DNA of 64,000 nucleotides, taken from the NCBI RefSeq assembly GCF_030811095.1, contig NZ_JAUSQL010000001.1, forward strand, positions 1,674,001-1,738,000, read 5' to 3'. Within the stretch, counting starts at the first letter, position 1. Each line of letters opens with the position of its first letter. Shown here piece by piece: positions 2,204 to 47,556 of the stretch. The stretch is from Trueperella abortisuis. GTDB lineage: Bacteria; Actinomycetota; Actinomycetes; Actinomycetales; Actinomycetaceae. The notes under the pieces were generated by a model that saw only the letters and a program-made list of their open reading frames with translations, was not told the DNA's origin and ran no database searches. The position numbers were made by a program, and so were the translations under genes.

Positions 2204-4849
2204 GTGGCTGATTCATCGTTTGGTTTGAAGATTGGCTTGGAGGGCGAGCGGGAGTTTAAGAAGGCGATCACGGATATCAACCGTGAGATGCGGGTGCTGG
2301 GGTCTGAGATGAAGGTGGTGGCTTCCCAGTTCGGGAAGAACGCTGCTGACGCGGACGCTCTCACGGCCCGCAACGAGGTGTTGGGCAAGCAGATCGAAAC
2401 CCAGAAGGGCAAGATCGAGGCGCTGAAGGCCGCCCTCCAAAACGCCAGTAGTTCGTTTGGTGAGGCTGATAGTCGTACCCAGAACTGGCAGATCCAGCTC
2501 AACAACGCCACCGCGACCCTGAACGAGCTCGAGGGGGAACTGGGCCAGAACACCTCCAAAATCGAGCAGCTCACCAATGCTGCGGGCAATAGCGAGGGTG
2601 AGTTCAAGGACGCCGCCACTGGCGCAGACAAACTCAGTGGCGAGGTGGATGATCTCGGCCGGGAAATGGATGACACATCCGGGAAGACTCGTGTCTTTGG
2701 TGATGTCCTGAAAGCCAACCTGGCTGCCGAGGCCATTATCGGCGGGGTTAAGGCCATCGGGTCCGCGATCGCTGGTATCGGCCGCGGCTTCGCATCCGCG
2801 ATGAAAGACGGGGTGGCCTACAACGCGGAGATGGAGCAGTACACCACGAGCTTCACCACGATGCTGGGTGACCAGGCTAAAGCCCAACAGCTCGTCAATG
2901 ATCTGAAGGTGACGGCGGCTAAGACCCCGTTCGGTATGGGAGACCTGGCGAAAAACACGCAGACGCTCATGGCGTTTGGCATCAGCGCGGACGAAGCGAA
3001 ACTGCGTCTGGGCCAGCTTGGTGACATCTCCCAGGGTGATGCCCAAAAACTTGAGTCATTGACGCTGGCGTTCGCACAGGTTTCCTCTGCGGGGAAACTC
3101 TCCGGCCAGGATCTGCTGCAGATGATCAATGCCGGGTTTAACCCGTTGCAGGAGATGAGTAAGAAGACCGGCAAGAGCGTCGGCGAGCTCAAAGAGGAGA
3201 TGGAGAAGGGCGCGATCAGCGCCGACATGGTCGCTGAGGCGTTCGCGTCCGCGACTGCTGAGGGTGGCCAGTTCTACGGGGCGATGGAAGCCCAGTCCAA
3301 AACCTTCTCCGGACAAATGAGCACTCTCGAGGACGGCATTAACGGCCTCAAGGGCTCTCTCGCAGGGGGCCTGACGGGCATGCTGGCATCCACGGTTCTA
3401 CCCATGGTTAATGGCTGGGTTGACACGCTGACCACCGCCTTCGAACAAGGCGGGGTTGATGGGTTGCTGGGTGCGTTGGATGGGATCCTCACCCAGGCCC
3501 TGGATTTCCTCTCCGCCCAGCTCCCAGTCGTACTGGACGTGGCCTTGAAGGCGATCATGGCGCTAGTCGAAGCCCTCGTGAACAGCGCACCACAACTAGC
3601 CACGGCGGCGGTGCAGATTCTGCAAACCCTCGCCACCGCGATCCTCACCGCCCTGCCACTACTGGTAGACGCCGCGCTACAAATCATCGGGACCTTGGCT
3701 GCCGGTATTGGTCAGGCTCTGCCCACGTTGATTCCGGCGATCGTGGCGGCGTTGGTTGCGATCGTCCAAGCAATCATCGACAATCTCCCGCTCATCCTGG
3801 ACGGGGCGCTGCAGCTGGTGTTGGGTTTGGCGCAGGGGTTGATTGCGGCGATCCCGGTGTTGATCGAGGCTTTGCCGGCGCTGATTCAAGCGATCATCGA
3901 CTTCGTGATCGGGGCGATCCCGATGATCATCGACGCCGGCATCCAGCTCCTCACTGCTTTGGTGACGGCGTTGCCGACGATCATTGAGGCGATTGTGGCG
4001 GCCCTGCCGCAGATCATCACCTCCATCATCACAGCGATCCTGGGGGCCATTCCGCTGCTGATCGACGCAGGCATCAAACTGCTCACCGCCCTGATCGGGG
4101 CACTGCCGCAAATCATCCAAACCCTCGTGGCGGCCATGCCCACGATCATTGCAGCGGTCATCGGCGCGATCCTGGCGGCTGTACCGCAGTTGATCCAGGC
4201 CGGCATCCGGTTGCTTACCGCGCTTGTTGGGGCGTTGCCGCAGATCATCTCCACGATTGTCTCGGCGGTGCCCCAGATCCTCGGCTCGCTCATAAGTGGC
4301 TTGGCGCAGGGGTATGGGCAGATGCTGGACGTGGGTATGAACCTGGTGCGCGGCCTATGGTCGGGCATCCAGCAGCTCGCGGGATGGCTGTGGAACAAAG
4401 TCTCTAGCTGGGTGAGCAGCATCTGGGACGGGATCACCAGTTTCTTCGGGATCCATTCACCCTCACGGCAGATGGCCTGGGTCGGCGACATGCTCACACG
4501 CGGTCTCGCACAAGGAATCGATGCCACCGGAGCCCGTGCCGTGAACGCCGCCGAAGACATGGCAGCAGACGTCAGTGACACCCTCGGCAGCCTGACGTCC
4601 GGGGTACGCATCCCAGTCTCTATGGGCCCGTCCATGCCGAACCATGTAGGCGCACCCGGCTCCATGGGGGCCGGTAGCACGGTTATGGATGCGGAGGCTG
4701 TGGCGACAGCGGCGGCCAAGAGCGTGCTGGAGAAGCTGGACGTGAATGTGCGCCTGTCAGACGGGACGCTGGTCGGCAAACTCACCCCACTCATCGACCG
4801 CCAGTTGGCGGCCCGGGGCCGTACCAGCGCACTGCTCACACCCACCTAA
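2204..4849 (+). CDS. Phage tail tape measure protein
   Basis: An 881-aa protein starting at GTG 2204 behind a strong AAAGGAGG. Residues ~1-150 are predicted coiled coil, rich in Lys/Glu/Gln with Asn/Ser turns. Residues ~200-370 form the conserved tape-measure region, including YTTSFTTMLGDQAKAQQLV and GISADEAKLRLGQLGD. Residues ~400-690 are a long hydrophobic array of related units such as ALPQIIQTLV and AIPLLIDAGIKLLTAL. The C-terminus has a Trp-rich section (WSGIQQLAGWLWNKVSSWV) and a Ser/Gly tail. Tape measures fix tail length and pass with DNA into the host membrane; the hydrophobic array suits membrane insertion. Length and position after the chaperones support the call. Confidence 0.93.
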   Translation: MADSSFGLKIGLEGEREFKKAITDINREMRVLGSEMKVVASQFGKNAADADALTARNEVLGKQIETQKGKIEALKAALQNASSSFGEADSRTQNWQIQLNNATATLNELEGELGQNTSKIEQLTNAAGNSEGEFKDAATGADKLSGEVDDLGREMDDTSGKTRVFGDVLKANLAAEAIIGGVKAIGSAIAGIGRGFASAMKDGVAYNAEMEQYTTSFTTMLGDQAKAQQLVNDLKVTAAKTPFGMGDLAKNTQTLMAFGISADEAKLRLGQLGDISQGDAQKLESLTLAFAQVSSAGKLSGQDLLQMINAGFNPLQEMSKKTGKSVGELKEEMEKGAISADMVAEAFASATAEGGQFYGAMEAQSKTFSGQMSTLEDGINGLKGSLAGGLTGMLASTVLPMVNGWVDTLTTAFEQGGVDGLLGALDGILTQALDFLSAQLPVVLDVALKAIMALVEALVNSAPQLATAAVQILQTLATAILTALPLLVDAALQIIGTLAAGIGQALPTLIPAIVAALVAIVQAIIDNLPLILDGALQLVLGLAQGLIAAIPVLIEALPALIQAIIDFVIGAIPMIIDAGIQLLTALVTALPTIIEAIVAALPQIITSIITAILGAIPLLIDAGIKLLTALIGALPQIIQTLVAAMPTIIAAVIGAILAAVPQLIQAGIRLLTALVGALPQIISTIVSAVPQILGSLISGLAQGYGQMLDVGMNLVRGLWSGIQQLAGWLWNKVSSWVSSIWDGITSFFGIHSPSRQMAWVGDMLTRGLAQGIDATGARAVNAAEDMAADVSDTLGSLTSGVRIPVSMGPSMPNHVGAPGSMGAGSTVMDAEAVATAAAKSVLEKLDVNVRLSDGTLVGKLTPLIDRQLAARGRTSALLTPT

Positions 4850-4886
4850 ACCACTCACTGTCGCTACTTCTTTGGGAGGTGTTGTG

Positions 4887-5576
4887 ATGCGTGGATTCAT
4901 CCTCGGAGACTTTGATTCCCTGGCCAGTGGGTGCCGGGTGACGAGTCTGCCGGCTGTGTCTTTCACCGCCCGCGCCACCACTGATGTGGAGGTTGCGGGC
5001 GGTGAAGGCATCATCACCCGCACCACCGGCTGGAGTCCCCGCACCCTCAGTATTGGCTTGCTGGCTCCGAGCCTGGATGTGGTCGAGCACCTCGCAGGCA
5101 CCGCTACACACAGTGGTTTGTATCTGCGGTTGTCGCACCTACCAGGCCGATACCTCATCACCACCAAAGGCTCGGTGAGCGAGCTGTCCCGGTTCGGCAC
5201 CCGGTGGAAAGCCACCCTGGAGGTGACCTGCCGGCCCTTCACCTACCTGGATGCGGGCCTGACCCCAGTGCCCCTCAGGGCGGGCGGGGTGGTGCGGGTG
5301 GTCAACCCGACCCTGCTCGACTCCCGGCCCGTCATCACCCTGTCTGGTTCTGGCACCACCACGATCACGATCAACAACACCCCGTACCGGGTCGTGCTCC
5401 CAGGCTCGGGTGAGCTCGTGATCGATTGCGGCTCGATGACCTGCACGGTCTCAGGCAAAACCCTCACCGACGCCCTTTTGGCTCTCGACTTCCCAGTACT
5501 GGTGCCGGGCGTGAACACGCTGGCACTGCCGGCGGGTGTTTCTGGGCGCTTGATTCCGATGTGGAGGACACCATGA
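4887..5576 (+). CDS. Distal tail protein (Dit / siphovirus tail component)
   Basis: A 229-aa protein following the tape measure, as expected for the Dit hub that joins the tail tip to the tube. The N-terminus RGFILGDFDSLASG, a middle section with RYLITTKGSVSELSRFGTRW and a C-terminal all-beta part (LSGSGTTTITINN, then GELVIDCGSMTC) match the siphovirus Dit layout. GGGAGGT at 4874-4880 sits 6 nt before ATG 4887; the overlapping GTG at 4884 would be too close. The stop overlaps the next start as ATGA, so the two are translationally coupled. Confidence 0.8.
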   Translation: MRGFILGDFDSLASGCRVTSLPAVSFTARATTDVEVAGGEGIITRTTGWSPRTLSIGLLAPSLDVVEHLAGTATHSGLYLRLSHLPGRYLITTKGSVSELSRFGTRWKATLEVTCRPFTYLDAGLTPVPLRAGGVVRVVNPTLLDSRPVITLSGSGTTTITINNTPYRVVLPGSGELVIDCGSMTCTVSGKTLTDALLALDFPVLVPGVNTLALPAGVSGRLIPMWRTP

Positions 5577-14670: not shown

Positions 14671-14744
14671 TGGAGCGAGTGACGGGAATCGAACCCGCGT
14701 CATCTGCTTGGAAGGCAGAGGCTTTACCATTAAGCTACACTCGC
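14671..14744 (-). tRNA. tRNA-Gly (anticodon TCC)
   Basis: On the minus strand the acceptor GCGAGTG pairs with CACTCGC, the D arm is short, the anticodon loop reads CTTCCAA with anticodon TCC, the T arm contains GGTTCGATTCC, and the 3' CCA is encoded. It is the first chromosomal gene right of the prophage. Confidence 0.97.
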
Positions 14745-14881: not shown

Positions 14882-14958
14882 CGGGGTATAGCGCAGTTTG
14901 GTAGCGCGTCCGCTTTGGGAGCGGAAGGTCGTGGGTTCAAATCCCGCTACCCCGACCA
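14882..14958 (+). tRNA. tRNA-Pro (anticodon TGG)
   Basis: Acceptor CGGGGTA pairs with TACCCCG, the anticodon loop reads TTTGGGA with anticodon TGG, the T arm has GGTTCAAATCC, and CCA is encoded. It is divergent from tRNA-Gly; the 137-bp gap should contain both promoters. Confidence 0.97.
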
Positions 14959-36393: not shown

Positions 36394-36466
36394 GCCTCCA
36401 TAGCTCAGCGGATAGAGCAGTGGCCTTCTAAGCCATGTGTCGCAGGTTCGAGTCCTGCTGGGGGCG
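36394..36466 (+). tRNA. tRNA-Arg (anticodon TCT)
   Basis: Acceptor GCCTCCA pairs with TGGGGGC, the anticodon loop reads CTTCTAA with anticodon TCT, and the T arm has GGTTCGAGTCC. CCA is not encoded, unlike in most tRNAs here. It ends 11 nt before orn. Confidence 0.95.
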
Positions 36467-37279: not shown

Positions 37280-37352
37280 GGTGGCTGACGGGGCTTGAAC
37301 CCGCGACCCCCTGGACCACAACCAGGTGCTCTACCACTGAGCTACAGCCACC
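37280..37352 (-). tRNA. tRNA-His (anticodon GTG)
   Basis: On the minus strand acceptor GTGGCTG pairs with CAGCCAC, with an encoded G at -1 (37352) facing C73 (37280), the histidine identity pair. The anticodon loop reads TTGTGGT with anticodon GTG. CCA is not encoded. Confidence 0.95.
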
Positions 37353-38572: not shown

Positions 38573-38649
38573 GCACCGCTAGCTCAACTGGCTAGAGCAT
38601 CTGACTCTTAATCAGAGGGTTCTGGGTTCGAGTCCCAGGCGGTGTACCA
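38573..38649 (+). tRNA. tRNA-Lys (anticodon CTT)
   Basis: Acceptor GCACCGC pairs with GCGGTGT, the anticodon loop reads CTCTTAA with anticodon CTT, the T arm has GGTTCGAGTCC, and CCA is encoded. Confidence 0.96.
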
Positions 38650-41637: not shown

Positions 41638-42348
41638 ATGATCAGCGCAAATATCGATTCCGTTCGCGGGCGCATTGCCCGCGCCGAGCAGGCCGCCGGA
41701 CGTGCGCCGGGCTCCGTCACGTTAGAGGTGGCGGCCAAGCACCAGCCGCTCGCCAACCTTGTGGAGGCGGCCGCGTGCGGGGTCACGACCTTCGGTCACA
41801 ATCTTGTCCCCCAGCTGGTTGAGTCCGCCGCCGGACTCGCGGACGCCGGCGTGCGCGCCACCCACACGGTGATTGGGCCGGTGCAATCGAACAAGCTGCG
41901 CGCGGCGATGGACCGCGCGGATCGCATCGACACCGTCGATTCGGTCAAGGAGGCCATGCGCATAGCCCGCCGCCAGGAGGCCCGTATCGAGGAGGAGATA
42001 GCCGAGGGGCCCTACCCCATCCTCATCCAGGTTAACTCGGCCGGGGCGCACACGCAGTCGGGGTGCGCACCTGCTGAGCTGATCGACATCGCGGGCCAGA
42101 TTTGCGAGCTTGGGTTGATCCGCATCGATGGGCTCATGACCATCGGCGCCCACACCACCGACGACGCCGCCATCCACGCCTCCTTCGCGCTCACCCGCGA
42201 GTTGTCGGAAAAGATGCGGGAGCTGTCCGGACTGGAAGGCGCGGCCGAGCTGTCGATGGGTATGACCCACGATCTGGAGATCGCGGTGGCCGAGGGCTCC
42301 ACGATGGTTCGGGTGGGCACGGCCATTTTCGGTCCGCGCCCCGCATGA
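41638..42348 (+). CDS. YggS/PROSC-type PLP homeostasis protein
   Basis: A 236-aa alanine-racemase-fold protein that binds PLP and balances B6 vitamers. Visible elements: EVAAKHQPLANLVEA with the PLP lysine, HTVIGPVQSNKLRA, ILIQVNSAGAHTQSG, GLMTIGAH and LSMGMTHDLEIAVAEGSTMVRVGTAIFG (in two parts around HD). Two usual residues differ: AKH for SKT/TKT at the lysine, and FGHN for FGEN. The first likely keeps PLP binding. It is the third gene of an operon with the helicase. Start ATG 41638 follows AGGAGTG. Confidence 0.88.
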   Translation: MISANIDSVRGRIARAEQAAGRAPGSVTLEVAAKHQPLANLVEAAACGVTTFGHNLVPQLVESAAGLADAGVRATHTVIGPVQSNKLRAAMDRADRIDTVDSVKEAMRIARRQEARIEEEIAEGPYPILIQVNSAGAHTQSGCAPAELIDIAGQICELGLIRIDGLMTIGAHTTDDAAIHASFALTRELSEKMRELSGLEGAAELSMGMTHDLEIAVAEGSTMVRVGTAIFGPRPA

Positions 42349-42383
42349 GCGCAATCAGCGCGTAGCCTCGGCGCCTAGGTGGT

Positions 42384-42417
42384 GGTTCGCGCCGGGCGCG
42401 AGCGTCCGGCGCGAACC
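42384..42417. terminator. Perfect hairpin between convergent yggS and pflA
   Basis: GGTTCGCGCCGG pairs with CCGGCGCGAACC over a 10-nt loop; no T tract. Confidence 0.75.
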
Positions 42418-42431
42418 TGTACCTGGATAGG

Positions 42432-43337
42432 CTAGAAGGTCTTCAACCCGGCGGAGCGGAAGATGTCGCGGATGAGGTCCGTGTGCGCCTTGGTGGGCGG
42501 CTCGACGTCCTTGAGCTGGTACTCCATCCCGAGCGTTTCCCACTTGTCGCGGCCCATCTGGTGGAAGGGAAGCACCTCCACTCGGGTCAGTGAGCTGAAC
42601 TCTTTCATGATCTCGGCGGTGGCCTCGATGTTGTCGATGTCGTCGGTGAGGCCGGGCACGAGCACGAAGCGCGCCCAGATCTCCACGCCAGCCTCCGAGA
42701 GCCGGTGGCCAAAGTCGATGGTGGGTTGGAGTTGGCGTCCGGTCGTGCGCTCGTAATAGTCGGGCAGGCCGGACTTGACGTCGAGGAGGACGAGGTCCGT
42801 GTCGGCCATCATCTGATCGGTCAGGTTGCGCCCGAGGAAGCCGGAGGTGTCGATCGCGGTGTGGATCCCCATCTCCTTCGCCCCGCGTAGGAGTTTGCCG
42901 AGGAAGGCGGGCTGCATGAGCGGTTCGCCGCCCGAGAAGGTCACCCCGCCGTTGGTGACCTTGAAGACGGCCTTGTAGCGGCTCATCCGATCGAGGATCG
43001 CCTCGGGGGTGGCCACCGTTCCCTCGCGGGCCCGGAGCGTATCAGGGTTGTGGCAGTACAGGCAGCGCAGCGGGCAGCCGGCGAAGAAGACGGTCATGCG
43101 GGTGCCGGGCCCATCCATCGCGGTGACCAGTTCCCACGAGTGGAGCGAGCCAAGGTCCCCGTTCCGGATCGCCATGATGTGCTCATGGCGCGTCATCTCC
43201 GGGGCGCGTGCGATGCCGTCCAGCCCCTTACCCGCCACGCGCGGGATTTCATCCTCGAGCGGGGCGGGAGCGTACTCGCCGGTGGAGCCCTCGCCCACCT
43301 GGAAGTACTTGCGTGCATCTAGCTGATAATTCGCCAA
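42432..43337 (-). CDS. pflA: Pyruvate formate-lyase-activating enzyme (radical SAM)
   Basis: A 301-aa radical SAM enzyme that puts the glycyl radical on pyruvate formate-lyase. The 4Fe-4S motif is CPLRCLYC (C-x3-C-x2-C), followed by the SAM-binding TFSGGEPLMQP and DTSGFL; LLDVKSG is also typical. E. coli PflA is 246 aa; the extra ~50 residues at the N-terminus lack known motifs. TTG 43337 follows AGGGAGA. A 14-bp hairpin separates it from the glycyl-radical gene, so its level may be set by readthrough or by its own promoter. Its substrate here is the separate 82-aa protein. Confidence 0.95.
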   Translation of the reverse strand: MANYQLDARKYFQVGEGSTGEYAPAPLEDEIPRVAGKGLDGIARAPEMTRHEHIMAIRNGDLGSLHSWELVTAMDGPGTRMTVFFAGCPLRCLYCHNPDTLRAREGTVATPEAILDRMSRYKAVFKVTNGGVTFSGGEPLMQPAFLGKLLRGAKEMGIHTAIDTSGFLGRNLTDQMMADTDLVLLDVKSGLPDYYERTTGRQLQPTIDFGHRLSEAGVEIWARFVLVPGLTDDIDNIEATAEIMKEFSSLTRVEVLPFHQMGRDKWETLGMEYQLKDVEPPTKAHTDLIRDIFRSAGLKTF

Positions 43338-43381
43338 TCAATCTCCCTCATCAAAAGCGGCTCGGTCGCCGCGTAATGATA

Positions 43382-43413
43382 GCGGGCGCGCGGGAAGGCT
43401 CCCGCGCGCCCGC
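43382..43413. terminator. 14-bp perfect hairpin between grcA-like and pflA
   Basis: GCGGGCGCGCGGGA pairs with TCCCGCGCGCCCGC around AGGC, with no T tract. It lies within the pfl gene group, so it may lower pflA expression relative to pflB. Confidence 0.75.
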
Positions 43414-43428
43414 CTCACCGAACCTACA

Positions 43429-43677
43429 CTACATGTGGTCGTGGAACGTACGCGACAGGACGTCGAGCTGCTGCTCGCGGGTGAGGCGAACGAAGTTGAC
43501 GGCGTAGCCCGACACGCGGACGGTCAGCTGGGGGTACTTCTCCGGGTGCTCCATCGCGTCCTCGAGGGTCTCGCGGTTGAGGACGTTGACGTTGGCGTGG
43601 TACAGACCCTGAACGCCACCGTTCTCCTCGCGCTGGGCCTTCATGGACGCAAGGCGCTCATCGTATGTCATAGCCAT
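43429..43677 (-). CDS. grcA: Stand-alone glycyl-radical domain protein (GrcA-like, C-terminal part of pyruvate formate-lyase)
   Basis: An 82-aa protein. Residues ~28-82 match the C-terminal end of pyruvate formate-lyase ([20 protein letters not shown], then [17 protein letters not shown]). Gly57 in RVSGYAV is the expected radical site. E. coli GrcA (YfiD, 127 aa) is similar but serves as a spare for damaged enzyme. Here the neighbouring catalytic protein ends just before this domain, so this small protein is probably an obligate subunit. The first ~22 residues ([19 protein letters not shown]) are Glu/Arg-rich and may dock it. AAGGAG precedes ATG 43677; the gap from pflB is 28 nt. Obligate use is inference. 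Confidence 0.9.
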
Positions 43678-43705
43678 GTTTTTTCTCCTTGTGTTGTGTA
43701 ATTAT

Positions 43706-45787
43706 TTAGCCCTTGCGCACCATGCCGGCATCCATGATGCCAACAAGGTTGGTGACCTGCTCATCGTGGTCGCGGCCGAGCGAGCTGGGAACAATGGTGT
43801 TGGTCAGCGAGATGCCGTCCAGGGCATCCGCGTAGTCAAGCTTGCCCACCGAGAGCATGGAGGCGAGCATGCCGTGCGTGTCAGCGCCGTTCTCCGGGTT
43901 GGCACCCGGGGCAAACGGCGTGCCGGCGCGGTGGCCGGAGGGGAAGTTGCCGGTGTTCTTGCCGTAGACCACGTTGGAGGTGATCGTTAGCACGGACTGG
44001 GTGGGGACGGCGCCGCGGTACATCGGGATTGCCTTGATCTTGCTCATCACCGTGTGAACGATGGTGGCCGCGATCTCGTCAGCGCGGTCGTCGTCGTTGC
44101 CGTAGCGCGGGAAGTTGCCCTCGGTACGGTAGTCGACGATGAGGCCGGACTCGTCGCGGATCGGGTAGACCTTGGCGTACTTGATGGCGGACAGGGAGTC
44201 GGCGACGATCGACAGGCCGGCGATGCCGCAGCCCATCGTCCGCAGGATGTCCGTGTCGTGGAGCGCCATCTCGAGGGCCTCGTAGGCGTACTTGTCGTGG
44301 CTCCAGTGGATGATGTTGAGGGCCTCAACGTAGGTCTCGACAACCCAGGTGAGCATGTCCTCGTACTTCTCCCACACCTCGTCGAAGTCGAGCGGGCCGT
44401 CGCCTTGGATGGGTTCGTAGCCGGTCACGATCTGCTTGCCGGTCATCTCGTCCCGGCCGCCATTGATCGCGTACAGGAGCGACTTGGCCGCATTGACGCG
44501 GGCGCCGAAGAACTGCATCTGCTTGCCCACCTGCATCGGGGACACGCAGCACGCGATCGCCGCGTCGTCGCCCCAGTGGCCGCAGATCTGTCGGTCGGCC
44601 TCGTACTGGATGGAGGAGGTCTCGATGGAGACCTCGGCGCAGAAGCGCTTGTAGCCCTCCGGTAGCCGCTCGGACCAGAAGATCGTGATGTTCGGCTCCG
44701 GTGCCGGGCCGAGGTTCATGAGGGTCTGCAGCAGGCGGAAGGAGGTCTTGGTCACGAGCGTGCGGCCGTCGACGCCGAAGCCCGCGTCCGACCAGGTTGC
44801 CCAGTACGGATCGCCGGAGAAGATCTGGTCGTAGGCCTCGGTGCGCAGGAAGCGCACGATACGCAGCTTGATGACGAGGGAGTCGATGATCTCCTGCGCC
44901 TCGCTCTCGGTGAGGACGCCGCGGGCGAAGTCGCGCTCGAAGTAGATGTCGAAGAAGGCCGAGACGCGGCCGAAGGACATCGCGGCGCCGTCTTGCGACT
45001 TGATCGCGCCGAGGTAGCCGAAGTACGTCCACTGCACGGCTTCCTTCGCCGTCTCAGCCGGGCGGGAGATGTCGAAGCCGTAGCTTTCCGCCATCTTCTT
45101 CAGCTTCTTCAGGGCGTTGATCTGCTCGGATATTTCCTCCTGGTCGCGAGCCCAATCCTGGGAGAAGGGCAGGTCGGCGCGCGCGAGCTTGTCCGCCTGC
45201 TTCTCCTCGATCAGGCGGTCCACGCCGTAGAGGGCCACGCGGCGGTAGTCGCCGATGATGCGGCCACGGCCATAGGCGTCGGGCAGACCGGTGATGATGT
45301 GCGAGGAACGGGCGGCGCGGATGCGCGGGGTGTAGACATCGAAGACGCCCTGGTTGTGGGTCTTGCGGTAGCGGGTGAAGATCTCCTTGACGTCCGGGTT
45401 GATCTCCTTGCCCGCCTCGTGGATCGCTGTCTCGACCATGCGCCATCCGCCATAGGGCATCATGGCGCGCTTGAGCGGGACATCCGTCTGCAGGCCGACG
45501 ATCACGTCGTCCTTGTCGCAAATGTAGCCCGGGCCGAAGGCGTCGATGTCCGCCGGAACGTTGACGTCGACGTCGTAGACGCGCCTCTCGCGCTCCACTG
45601 ACAGGTACTTCTCGTCAAGTTCCTTCCACAGCCCCAACGTCTTGTCCGTCGGGCCCTCGAGGAAGGACTTGTCGCCTTCATAGGGGGTGTAGTTCTTCTG
45701 GATGAAGTCGCGCACGTCAATCGTTTGCTGCCATGCGCCTTCCGTGAATCCTTGCCACTGCTGGATGGTCGTTGCCTCGGTGGTCAC
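43706..45787 (-). CDS. pflB: Pyruvate formate-lyase catalytic subunit lacking the glycyl-radical domain
   Basis: A 693-aa protein. It converts pyruvate and CoA to acetyl-CoA and formate in anaerobic fermentation. The catalytic Cys pair, Cys413-Cys414 in AIACCVSPM, is present. The sequence tracks typical PFL to NTIVPSSLGRDHDEQVTNLVGIMD, then stops after AGMVRKG. Full-length enzymes (~760 aa) go on from this point through the glycyl-radical domain. The stop is a clean TAA, followed by a separate gene with its own ribosome site that encodes the missing part. This is therefore a split gene, not a random truncation. GTG 45787 follows GAGGAG. Confidence 0.93.
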   Translation of the reverse strand: MTTEATTIQQWQGFTEGAWQQTIDVRDFIQKNYTPYEGDKSFLEGPTDKTLGLWKELDEKYLSVERERRVYDVDVNVPADIDAFGPGYICDKDDVIVGLQTDVPLKRAMMPYGGWRMVETAIHEAGKEINPDVKEIFTRYRKTHNQGVFDVYTPRIRAARSSHIITGLPDAYGRGRIIGDYRRVALYGVDRLIEEKQADKLARADLPFSQDWARDQEEISEQINALKKLKKMAESYGFDISRPAETAKEAVQWTYFGYLGAIKSQDGAAMSFGRVSAFFDIYFERDFARGVLTESEAQEIIDSLVIKLRIVRFLRTEAYDQIFSGDPYWATWSDAGFGVDGRTLVTKTSFRLLQTLMNLGPAPEPNITIFWSERLPEGYKRFCAEVSIETSSIQYEADRQICGHWGDDAAIACCVSPMQVGKQMQFFGARVNAAKSLLYAINGGRDEMTGKQIVTGYEPIQGDGPLDFDEVWEKYEDMLTWVVETYVEALNIIHWSHDKYAYEALEMALHDTDILRTMGCGIAGLSIVADSLSAIKYAKVYPIRDESGLIVDYRTEGNFPRYGNDDDRADEIAATIVHTVMSKIKAIPMYRGAVPTQSVLTITSNVVYGKNTGNFPSGHRAGTPFAPGANPENGADTHGMLASMLSVGKLDYADALDGISLTNTIVPSSLGRDHDEQVTNLVGIMDAGMVRKG

Positions 45788-45819
45788 GTTACTCCTCAGG
45801 TTGTTCTAAGTACACCCTC

Positions 45820-45825
45820 ATTCTA
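45820..45825 (-). promoter_or_regulatory. Predicted -10 box of the pflB promoter
   Basis: TAGAAT on the minus strand, ~33 bp before the pflB start. No clear -35 or known redox-regulator site is seen in the 131-bp gap. Confidence 0.45.
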
Positions 45826-45918
45826 GGAGATCGTCCTTCGAGCACAGCACATGGGGAGCTAACTCACATCGCACAATTCAGACAAAACACACCCCGGCGC
45901 TCCATGCCGTGAATGGAG

Positions 45919-47556
45919 TCATTCCACCCCGGGACTAAAGGTCCGATCTACCCCACGAGCTGGAGAAACAGGCTCATGCCCCGAGCGGATGAGGCCATAG
46001 TGATAACCGTCCGTCAACGCCTCCCACGCCGCCTCGATCACGTCAGCCCCGACCCCGACGGTCGTCCACGTCCCCGCCGCATCATTCATCGTCAGCAACA
46101 CGCGCGTCACCGCGCTGGTACCGTCGGCCGAGTCAAGGATACGCACCTTGAAGTCGGTCAGCCGCATGTCCTCCAGCTCGGCATACACCGGGGTCAGCGC
46201 GGCGCGCAAAGCCTGGTCGAGGGCGTGCACCGGGCCCACGCCCTCCCCCATCCGCATGATTCGATGCCCACCGGCGTACAGCTTGACGCGCGCCTCACTC
46301 ACCGTTTCCGACGGCGACGCCGCCGAGCGCACGTCTGCCGCCCACTGCTCCACCTCAAAGTAGCTCACCAGCTCCCCCAGCACCTCGCGTACGAGTAGCT
46401 CGAAGGACGCGTCCGCGGCGTCGTAGCTGTAACCCATCGCCTCGGCCGCCTTGACCCGCTCCGTGATCTGCCGCAACTCCTCGCCTCGGCCCGTCAGATC
46501 CACCCCAAACTCGCGGCACTTGAGCTCCACCGACGAGCGGCCAGCCATGTCGGAGACGAGCATGCGCATCCCGTTGCCCACCGCGGCCGGGTCAGTGTGC
46601 TGGTAAAGATTGGGATCCACGCGGATCGCGGAGGCGTGCAGACCGGCCTTGTGGGCGAACGACGAACGCCCCACATAGGGCTGACGCGGCTGCGGGGCCA
46701 TATTGGTCAACTCGGCGATAGCGTGGGAGACGGAGGTGAAGTCAGCCAGCTGCTCCGGCGTCACGGCCTGAAAATCTGTCTTGAGCGCAAGATTCGCCGC
46801 CACGGTCAGCAGGTTGGCATTCCCGGTGCGCTCCCCGTAGCCGTTGATGGTGCCCTGCACCTGACGACACCCGGCCTCCACCGCAGCGATCGTGTTCGCG
46901 ACGGCGCACCCGGCGTCGTCGTGCGTGTGAATGCCGAGCCTCGGCGTAACGCGCTGTGCCGCCAGCCGCGTCTCGAGGTCGGCGACCGTGTCGGAGACTG
47001 CCTTTGGCAACGAGCCGCCGTTGGTGTCGCACAGGATCGCCCAGCTCGCCCCCGCGCCCAAGGCCTCGGCCACGACGGCGGTGGCGTAGTCGGCGTCGGC
47101 GGCGAAGCCGTCAAAGAAGTGTTCCATGTCCACCATCACCTCACGCCCACACGAGCGCAGGTAGGTGACCGTGTCGCGCACCATGCGCAGGTTCTCCTCT
47201 GGCGTGGTGCGCAACGCGCCGACGACGTGGCGGATGTCCGACTTGGCCACCAGGCAGATGACCGGTGCGCCCGAGTCAATAAGAGCAGCCACCTGCGGAT
47301 CCTCCGCGGCGGGTACCCCCGCCTTGGCGGTGGCGCCGAAGGCGGTCAGCGTGGCGGACCGTAGCGGATTGGCGGACTTGAGGGCCGCGAAGAACTCCGT
47401 GTCACGCGGGATAGCACCCGGCCAGCCGCCCTCGATGTAGTCCGCGCCCATCGCCTCAATGTGGGGCAACATGGCGATCTTGTCCGCCACAGACAGGCTG
47501 ATGCCCTCCATCTGGGCGCCGTCGCGTAGCGTCGTGTCGTAGATGAAGACCTTCAT
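45919..47556 (-). CDS. cimA: (R)-citramalate synthase
   Basis: A 545-aa HMGL-like/LeuA-family enzyme that joins acetyl-CoA and pyruvate to citramalate, the threonine-independent entry to isoleucine. Motifs: IYDTTLRDGAQMEGISLS, DYIEGGWPGAIPRD, LCDTNGGSLP, GIHTHDDAGCAVANTIAAVEA, GTINGYGERTGNANLL. SFAHKAGLHASA marks the end of the catalytic part. The last ~150 residues form a LeuA-type allosteric dimer domain. The GGWPG motif points to CimA (type 2) rather than LeuA. It is the third gene of leuB-ilvE-cimA, 10 nt after ilvE. Confidence 0.92.
   Translation of the reverse strand: MKVFIYDTTLRDGAQMEGISLSVADKIAMLPHIEAMGADYIEGGWPGAIPRDTEFFAALKSANPLRSATLTAFGATAKAGVPAAEDPQVAALIDSGAPVICLVAKSDIRHVVGALRTTPEENLRMVRDTVTYLRSCGREVMVDMEHFFDGFAADADYATAVVAEALGAGASWAILCDTNGGSLPKAVSDTVADLETRLAAQRVTPRLGIHTHDDAGCAVANTIAAVEAGCRQVQGTINGYGERTGNANLLTVAANLALKTDFQAVTPEQLADFTSVSHAIAELTNMAPQPRQPYVGRSSFAHKAGLHASAIRVDPNLYQHTDPAAVGNGMRMLVSDMAGRSSVELKCREFGVDLTGRGEELRQITERVKAAEAMGYSYDAADASFELLVREVLGELVSYFEVEQWAADVRSAASPSETVSEARVKLYAGGHRIMRMGEGVGPVHALDQALRAALTPVYAELEDMRLTDFKVRILDSADGTSAVTRVLLTMNDAAGTWTTVGVGADVIEAAWEALTDGYHYGLIRSGHEPVSPARGVDRTFSPGVE

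Follow-up and report, generated by a model that had tools for sequence, protein, structure and literature searches.

The pfl locus of Trueperella abortisuis

We analysed 64,000 nucleotides of the Trueperella abortisuis genome (contig NZ_JAUSQL010000001.1, positions 1,674,001 to 1,738,000; hereafter, the window). Within it, pyruvate formate-lyase (PFL) is encoded in two parts. Three genes, all on the minus strand, follow one another in the order pflB, grcA2, pflA. The first, pflB (43706..45787), starts with GTG at 45787 and ends with TAA at 43706-43708. It encodes a PFL catalytic subunit of 693 residues and 77.5 kDa, without a glycyl-radical domain; the codons for Cys413-Cys414 are at 44546-44551. 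After an intergenic gap of 28 nucleotides (43678..43705), grcA2 (43429..43677) encodes a glycyl-radical subunit of 82 residues and 9.5 kDa, with the Gly57 codon at 43507-43509. A ribosome-binding site for grcA2, AAGGAG, is found at 43685-43690, 7 nucleotides ahead of the ATG. Note that pflB and grcA2 are in different reading frames, with the TAA between them. The third gene, pflA (42432..43337), encodes the PFL-activating radical S-adenosylmethionine enzyme. This has 301 residues, including an N-terminal extension of ~60, and scores 296 bits in a profile search with TIGR02493 (cut-off 231.75).

The two products tile one PFL

Alignment to PFL chains in the PDB identifies Cys413-Cys414, in AIACCVSP, as the catalytic pair of the core. 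The radical glycine of the small protein is Gly57, in RVSGYAV. Core residues 10-687 align with residues 10-691 of E. coli PFL, and small-protein residues 19-80 align with residues 696-757. Hence, the two pieces join without overlap near residue 695, the core reaching to a position that corresponds to about residue 695-697. The glycyl-radical domain is not present in the PflB chain, and is encoded by the next open reading frame (ORF). Indeed, the Pfam Gly_radical profile is itself divided, with positions 1-64 in the C-terminus of the core and 65-106 in the small protein. The same tiling is apparent in a predicted structure model of a relative, where core and GrcA2 were joined through a read-through linker. 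By itself, the core scores 1003.3 bits with the PFL profile TIGR01255 (curated cut-off 994.2). The small protein scores 165 bits with the GrcA2 profile NF008341 (cut-off 145), over positions 2-79 of 80, so that the N-terminal motif described below is covered. Since both scores are over cut-off, these sequence matches are not due to chance. The arrangement is as the original prediction had it: a 693-residue PflB that keeps the cysteine pair and stops at the linker before the radical domain, and an 82-residue protein, 28 nucleotides later with its own AAGGAG and Gly57 in RVSGYAV, that supplies the domain.

The split form is the only PFL found in the genome

In E. coli, PFL that oxygen has cleaved at Gly734 regains a radical domain from the small protein YfiD. 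GrcA2 could, likewise, be merely a spare part, with the core, or another PFL, working without it. It shares with YfiD a homologous radical domain, and the NCBIfam name for its family is autonomous glycyl radical cofactor. However, the core has no glycine-radical site of its own, and there is no other PFL to repair. The genome is a single contig of 2,447,956 bases, with a completeness of 100. Searches with PF02901 gave two matches: the PflB core and an 893-residue glycyl-radical enzyme. Searches with PF01228 gave four: the 893-residue enzyme, an ORF labelled NrdD-like from its sequence, and the two PFL halves. Thus, these profiles found no full-length PFL anywhere on the contig. Nor was a YfiD-type GrcA found in the genome. 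Hence, the two-part form is the only PFL. Furthermore, grcA2 is positioned between pflB and pflA, and its product scores 95.2 bits with the YfiD/GrcA family TIGR04365, below the curated cut-off of 170. We consider a spare-part role very unlikely.

The 893-residue enzyme is encoded outside the window (locus L207, G000:C1:1996500-2006500) with an activase of 319 residues alongside. It is closest to 4-hydroxyphenylacetate and indoleacetate decarboxylases, scoring below the cut-offs of both, and its sequence suggests that it is possibly an arylacetate decarboxylase. The region also encodes a lactate/oxalate-formate-type major facilitator superfamily transporter (below cut-offs) and a 567-residue protein without an NCBIfam match at E 1e-20.

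The split is conserved among relatives

We examined 200 genomes of the same family, counting the small protein where it scored over the NCBIfam cut-off. This was so in 143 genomes. Cores with 77-100% identity are present in 144, those next in the list having 67-69%. In all 143, the small match is on the same strand as the core match and directly downstream, with 16-429 nucleotides between the two. The matches are in frame with each other in 38 genomes and out of frame in 105. In the 144th genome (G036) the copy of the small protein is cut by a contig end. The other 56 genomes comprise 17 with no core match, seven with weak matches (best E 1.5e-4 to 2.4e-6), presumably to other glycyl-radical enzymes, and 32 with a strong match to a less similar PFL. 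Eight of these 32 were re-examined and each has one fused PFL chain; for the remaining 24 there is, at most, an open-frame length among the matches listed.

Because the two ORFs of the window are merely 28 nucleotides apart, a sequencing error, or a programmed frameshift or read-through, might be thought to conceal one fused protein. The varying distance between the matches, and their varying frame relation, argue against this. In addition, the core genes of seven named loci end with different stop codons (TAA, TAG, or TGA), 45 of 55 small genes are preceded by a ribosome-site-like sequence, and the N-terminal motif is conserved behind the small protein's own start. We regard the chance of such an error or recoding event as practically negligible. 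It is also extremely unlikely that the PFL is degenerate and inactive. Such decay is what a core without a radical domain could suggest and, as an exception among the relatives, one Trueperella metagenome-assembled genome (MAG; G136, locus L101) has an internal TAG in pflB with grcA2 intact, either through assembly error or as a real lesion. Against this, the pflB-grcA2 pair is kept over many genera, at the core identities given above, and both the cysteine pair and RVSGYAV are intact in the window proteins.

Two irregular cases were set aside. In G063, an apparent natural fusion, a 764-residue frame over grcA2, is an arginine-rich out-of-frame reading of the pflB region, and the core is separate. 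In G160, the 381-nucleotide gap contains an inverted copy of core DNA, and is probably an assembly fault.

The original prediction took the two-part form to be the normal enzyme, which is borne out by its standing as the sole PFL found in the genome and by the recurrence of the split. Two possibilities had been named that would overturn this view. One was a full-length PFL elsewhere as the main enzyme, and none was found. The other was a sequencing error dividing one gene into two frames, which is ruled against by the split in 143 of 143 genomes and by the varying frames. The survey of related genomes, also proposed at that stage, found all 143 sampled family genomes with the small protein over cut-off to be split.

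A split-specific motif at the start of GrcA2

Residues 4-16 of GrcA2 (43630..43668, minus strand) form the motif T-Y/F-x-E-R-L-x-x-M-K-x-x-R. We compared 55 non-identical proteins, from 72 loci in about 68 genomes; the loci fetched favour high scorers and are not all 143. R8, M12, and R16 are invariant (55/55), E7, K13, and L9 are nearly so (53, 52, and 48 of 55, respectively), and residues 17-19 are variable. The arginine codons used at R8 and R16 vary (50 proteins). In all 91 fused loci, including Cellulomonas citrea and Bifidobacterium, the 60 residues that precede strand 10 lack the R...M...R pattern. The three invariant residues are spaced every four positions, like one face of a helix, and both structure models draw a helix here with low confidence. 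The original prediction had noted an extra charged start. The extra segment is present, though 'charged' is too general a word for what is, rather, a conserved motif specific to split forms.

Work with E. coli suggests what the motif might do. The accessible text of Andorfer et al. 2021 (PMC8683613) describes PFL cut after residue 695 (tPFL). Binding of YfiD to tPFL was not measurable by isothermal titration calorimetry and activation was 32-fold lower. Once activated, the tPFL/YfiD complex had a normal kcat. Residues 696-733 were proposed as a recognition element, and YfiD residues 1-60 were given a role (PMC8683613). The core studied here is without this segment, which aids YfiD binding, so docking would instead be by the conserved N-terminal helix of GrcA2. 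From its split-specific conservation, its four-residue spacing, and the helix in the models, we infer that the motif is the best candidate for a docking helix that would replace the lost recognition segment.

Splitting arose at least twice

A scan of named records covered the best 80 of 582 confirmed loci. Eight of the 80 have the same split form: the Trueperella MAG, six Corynebacterium records, and Dermabacter hominis. The remaining 72, two of which are partial, are fused. In a sample of 396 genomes from the phylum, two have the small protein over cut-off, T. abortisuis itself included. From this sample, we picked genomes with short small-protein frames. Nine of them, belonging to another class of the same phylum, probably Coriobacteriia, have a second split type (type II). 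The type II core ends before the segment NL-x-x-M-x-D-G-Y, which sits near the start of the type II small protein, and the seam is ~15 residues earlier than that of the window type. Five type II cores have cysteine-rich C-terminal tails (e.g. CGCC, CDCC, and CSCC). We also sampled 249 genomes of the phylum of Clostridium (locus L162), and 79 had matches at E 1e-20 or better. One of the 79, G823, is split in the type II manner and 76 have long frames. The short frames of G628 and G799 were rejected as splits, being due to a contig end and a masked-base stretch, respectively.

A tree was made with 110 of 175 loci that have both parts, after genome repeats, near copies, and partial cores were removed by hand. 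Window-type and type II split cores are far apart in this tree, and a single clade for all 43 split cores is rejected (approximately unbiased test, p-AU 7e-62). Given this rejection, and the different seams, the sequences indicate that the split arose at least twice, at positions ~15 residues apart. The nearest fused relatives in the trees are those of C. citrea (79% core identity) and the Bifidobacteriaceae. In the careful tree, both are inside the split clade. Note that alternatives to this placement are not rejected (p-AU 0.127, 0.261, and 0.163; 0.604 in a larger tree). The fused PFLs of Bifidobacteriaceae and C. citrea may, from this placement, be re-fusions. They share the seam sequence LDxG...GLYHANINVL with the split form but are one chain and have no N-terminal motif.

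Two further observations concern these trees. Residues P465, T575, H578, and I587 differ in split cores, and also in C. citrea; this is an uncorrected lead. In a Lachnospiraceae MAG (L148, about 2856-5180), a fused PFL has an insert that resembles a type II tail plus the start of the small protein. It is sister to the type II split cores, and could be an ancestor-like or a re-fused form.

Expression signals, activase, and other features of the window

A strong GC-rich hairpin (43382..43414, minus strand) is predicted between grcA2 and pflA; the fold of 43345-43432 has a minimum free energy of -50.9 kcal/mol and a z-score of -4.05. No strong hairpin was found in the 28 nucleotides between pflB and grcA2. 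Folds at the grcA2/pflA site are strong in the window and in five relatives of the same genus (-39.9 to -52.3 kcal/mol, with no shuffle control). Another locus of the genus, L067, has no measurable stretch, and G129 and G136 are not in the comparison. More distant loci have such a hairpin in some cases and none in others. The hairpin may set expression of the catalytic activase below that of the two stoichiometric subunits. A scan of 42300-46000 for sigma-70-like promoters found none. The N-terminal extension of PflA was considered as a mark of a split-specific activase. It is no such marker, since fused actinobacterial systems carry it too. Elsewhere, the window has five tRNA genes (14674-14744, 14882-14955, 36394-36466, 37280-37351, and 38573-38646), beyond which an Rfam scan found no family at the gathering threshold.

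Discussion

Our analysis makes it highly probable, from sequence comparison, that pflB-grcA2-pflA encodes an obligate two-subunit PFL. By analogy with the E. coli enzyme, the core would provide most of the barrel, the cysteine pair, and the sites for pyruvate and coenzyme A. GrcA2 would provide strand 10, the glycyl-radical loop, and the C-terminal helix. We propose that GrcA2 would dock on the core, that its loop would flip out to PflA so that the radical could be placed on Gly57, and that the loaded loop would then flip back beside Cys413/414. A radical domain in trans is workable, since intermediate levels of formate are made in vivo by an E. coli PFL core with a G734A substitution together with GrcA (PMC12338860). 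Oxygen might cleave only GrcA2, in which case a fresh copy could restore the enzyme with the 77-kDa core kept. Such an exchange of the radical unit after oxygen damage, which the original prediction had inferred, is an attractive possibility.

Several points weigh against this interpretation. Given the poor binding of YfiD by the truncated E. coli core, swapping need not be easy, and no biochemistry for the core/GrcA2 pair was found in the open-access literature. The position of the N-terminal helix in the models is of low confidence (the block has a predicted local distance difference test score, pLDDT, of 54-59), and GrcA2 modelled alone has a mean pLDDT of 68.1 with a predicted template modelling score of 0.47. 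The joint model was built through the linker obtained by read-through, and 44 of the 57 rows of its alignment come from fused PFLs. Hence, it would place the radical domain anyway. Conservation of the N-terminal motif also fits a role in stability or in recognition by the activase. Finally, open frames of 875 and 829 residues cover both halves in G599 and G600. Each length equals the two frames plus one in-frame stop, seen in the DNA (TGA and TAA, respectively), and we take the frames to read across it.

The enzyme could also be an obligate pair without exchange, where a neutral gene fission has become fixed and the radical piece is bound for life. The two genes are neighbours, in an order that never varies, in all 143 genomes, the conserved motif could serve tight, permanent binding, and close relatives (C. 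citrea and the Bifidobacteriaceae) keep fused forms. Suggestive evidence to the contrary is that splitting has at least two origins and that the seam falls at a place for which E. coli has a known exchangeable part. We put the chance of a permanent pair a little short of even. The fuller proposal is of a consumable radical subunit. Here, the N-terminal helix would let a 9.5-kDa piece dock on a 77-kDa core that lasts, be activated there, and be exchanged for a new one. The split would have evolved on two or more occasions, each with its own seam, and may have been reversed by re-fusion in Bifidobacteriaceae and C. citrea. We offer this tentatively, and as a whole it is rather doubtful.

How does the two-subunit enzyme compare with known systems? 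Up to 2021, characterisation of GrcAs had been confined to YfiD of E. coli and Y06I of phage T4 (PMC8683613). YfiD (6owr) resembles GrcA2 in having a radical domain homologous to the PFL C-terminus and in acting in trans on a core (PMC8683613 and PMC12338860). YfiD, however, has a disordered N-terminal half of 60 residues, and the PFL that it mends is otherwise complete. The start of GrcA2, 23 residues long, is conserved; the protein is encoded within the pfl cluster and partners a core without a radical domain of its own. Similarly, the window protein is a member of NF008341 (PRK11127.1-1), but where the family name speaks of an autonomous cofactor, here the protein alone bears the radical in the one PFL found. 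The engineered pair, tPFL (1-695) plus YfiD, has its cut no more than about two residues from the seam in nature. It is artificial and binds and activates poorly, whereas the natural pair, if working, must have solved binding and activation. Type II PFL also has a separate core and small glycyl-radical protein, from adjacent genes (families f20 and f41, and genome G823). It differs in its earlier cut, in having NL-x-x-M-x-D-G-Y on the small protein, in its own core tails, and in its separate origin. The PDB contains a core without a radical domain, 38lb, that shares 79.8% identity with the type II core of L093 (307 residues compared), and 38la likewise stops at the core end, whether as a natural or a cut form. 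Hence, someone has solved structures of related cores.

We found no paper describing a natural split PFL in the open-access literature; preprints and subscription papers were largely outside the search. The accessible text of PMC12288474 gives Fusobacterium nucleatum as having no GrcA, and that of PMC12208373, on PFL in vaginal bacteria, has nothing on a split. Known already, in part, are the NCBIfam name GrcA2 and the PDB core of the second type. New are the split enzyme as sole PFL in a single-contig genome, the fixed linkage, the two origins, a seam that falls where the engineered truncation was made, and the split-specific motif.

A cut near residue 695 is the standing form of a central fermentation enzyme in Corynebacterium, in Dermabacter, and in a large part of one actinobacterial family. 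Its matched partners, with a candidate docking motif, make a ready system for understanding what holds a radical loop, how the loop passes to the activase, and how it may be renewed. Annotators should be warned that a core of this kind is not a truncated gene but a whole subunit, and that 'GrcA2' likewise names a subunit and not a spare. If the radical subunit is indeed consumable, oxygen damage would cost these bacteria only the small part of the enzyme.
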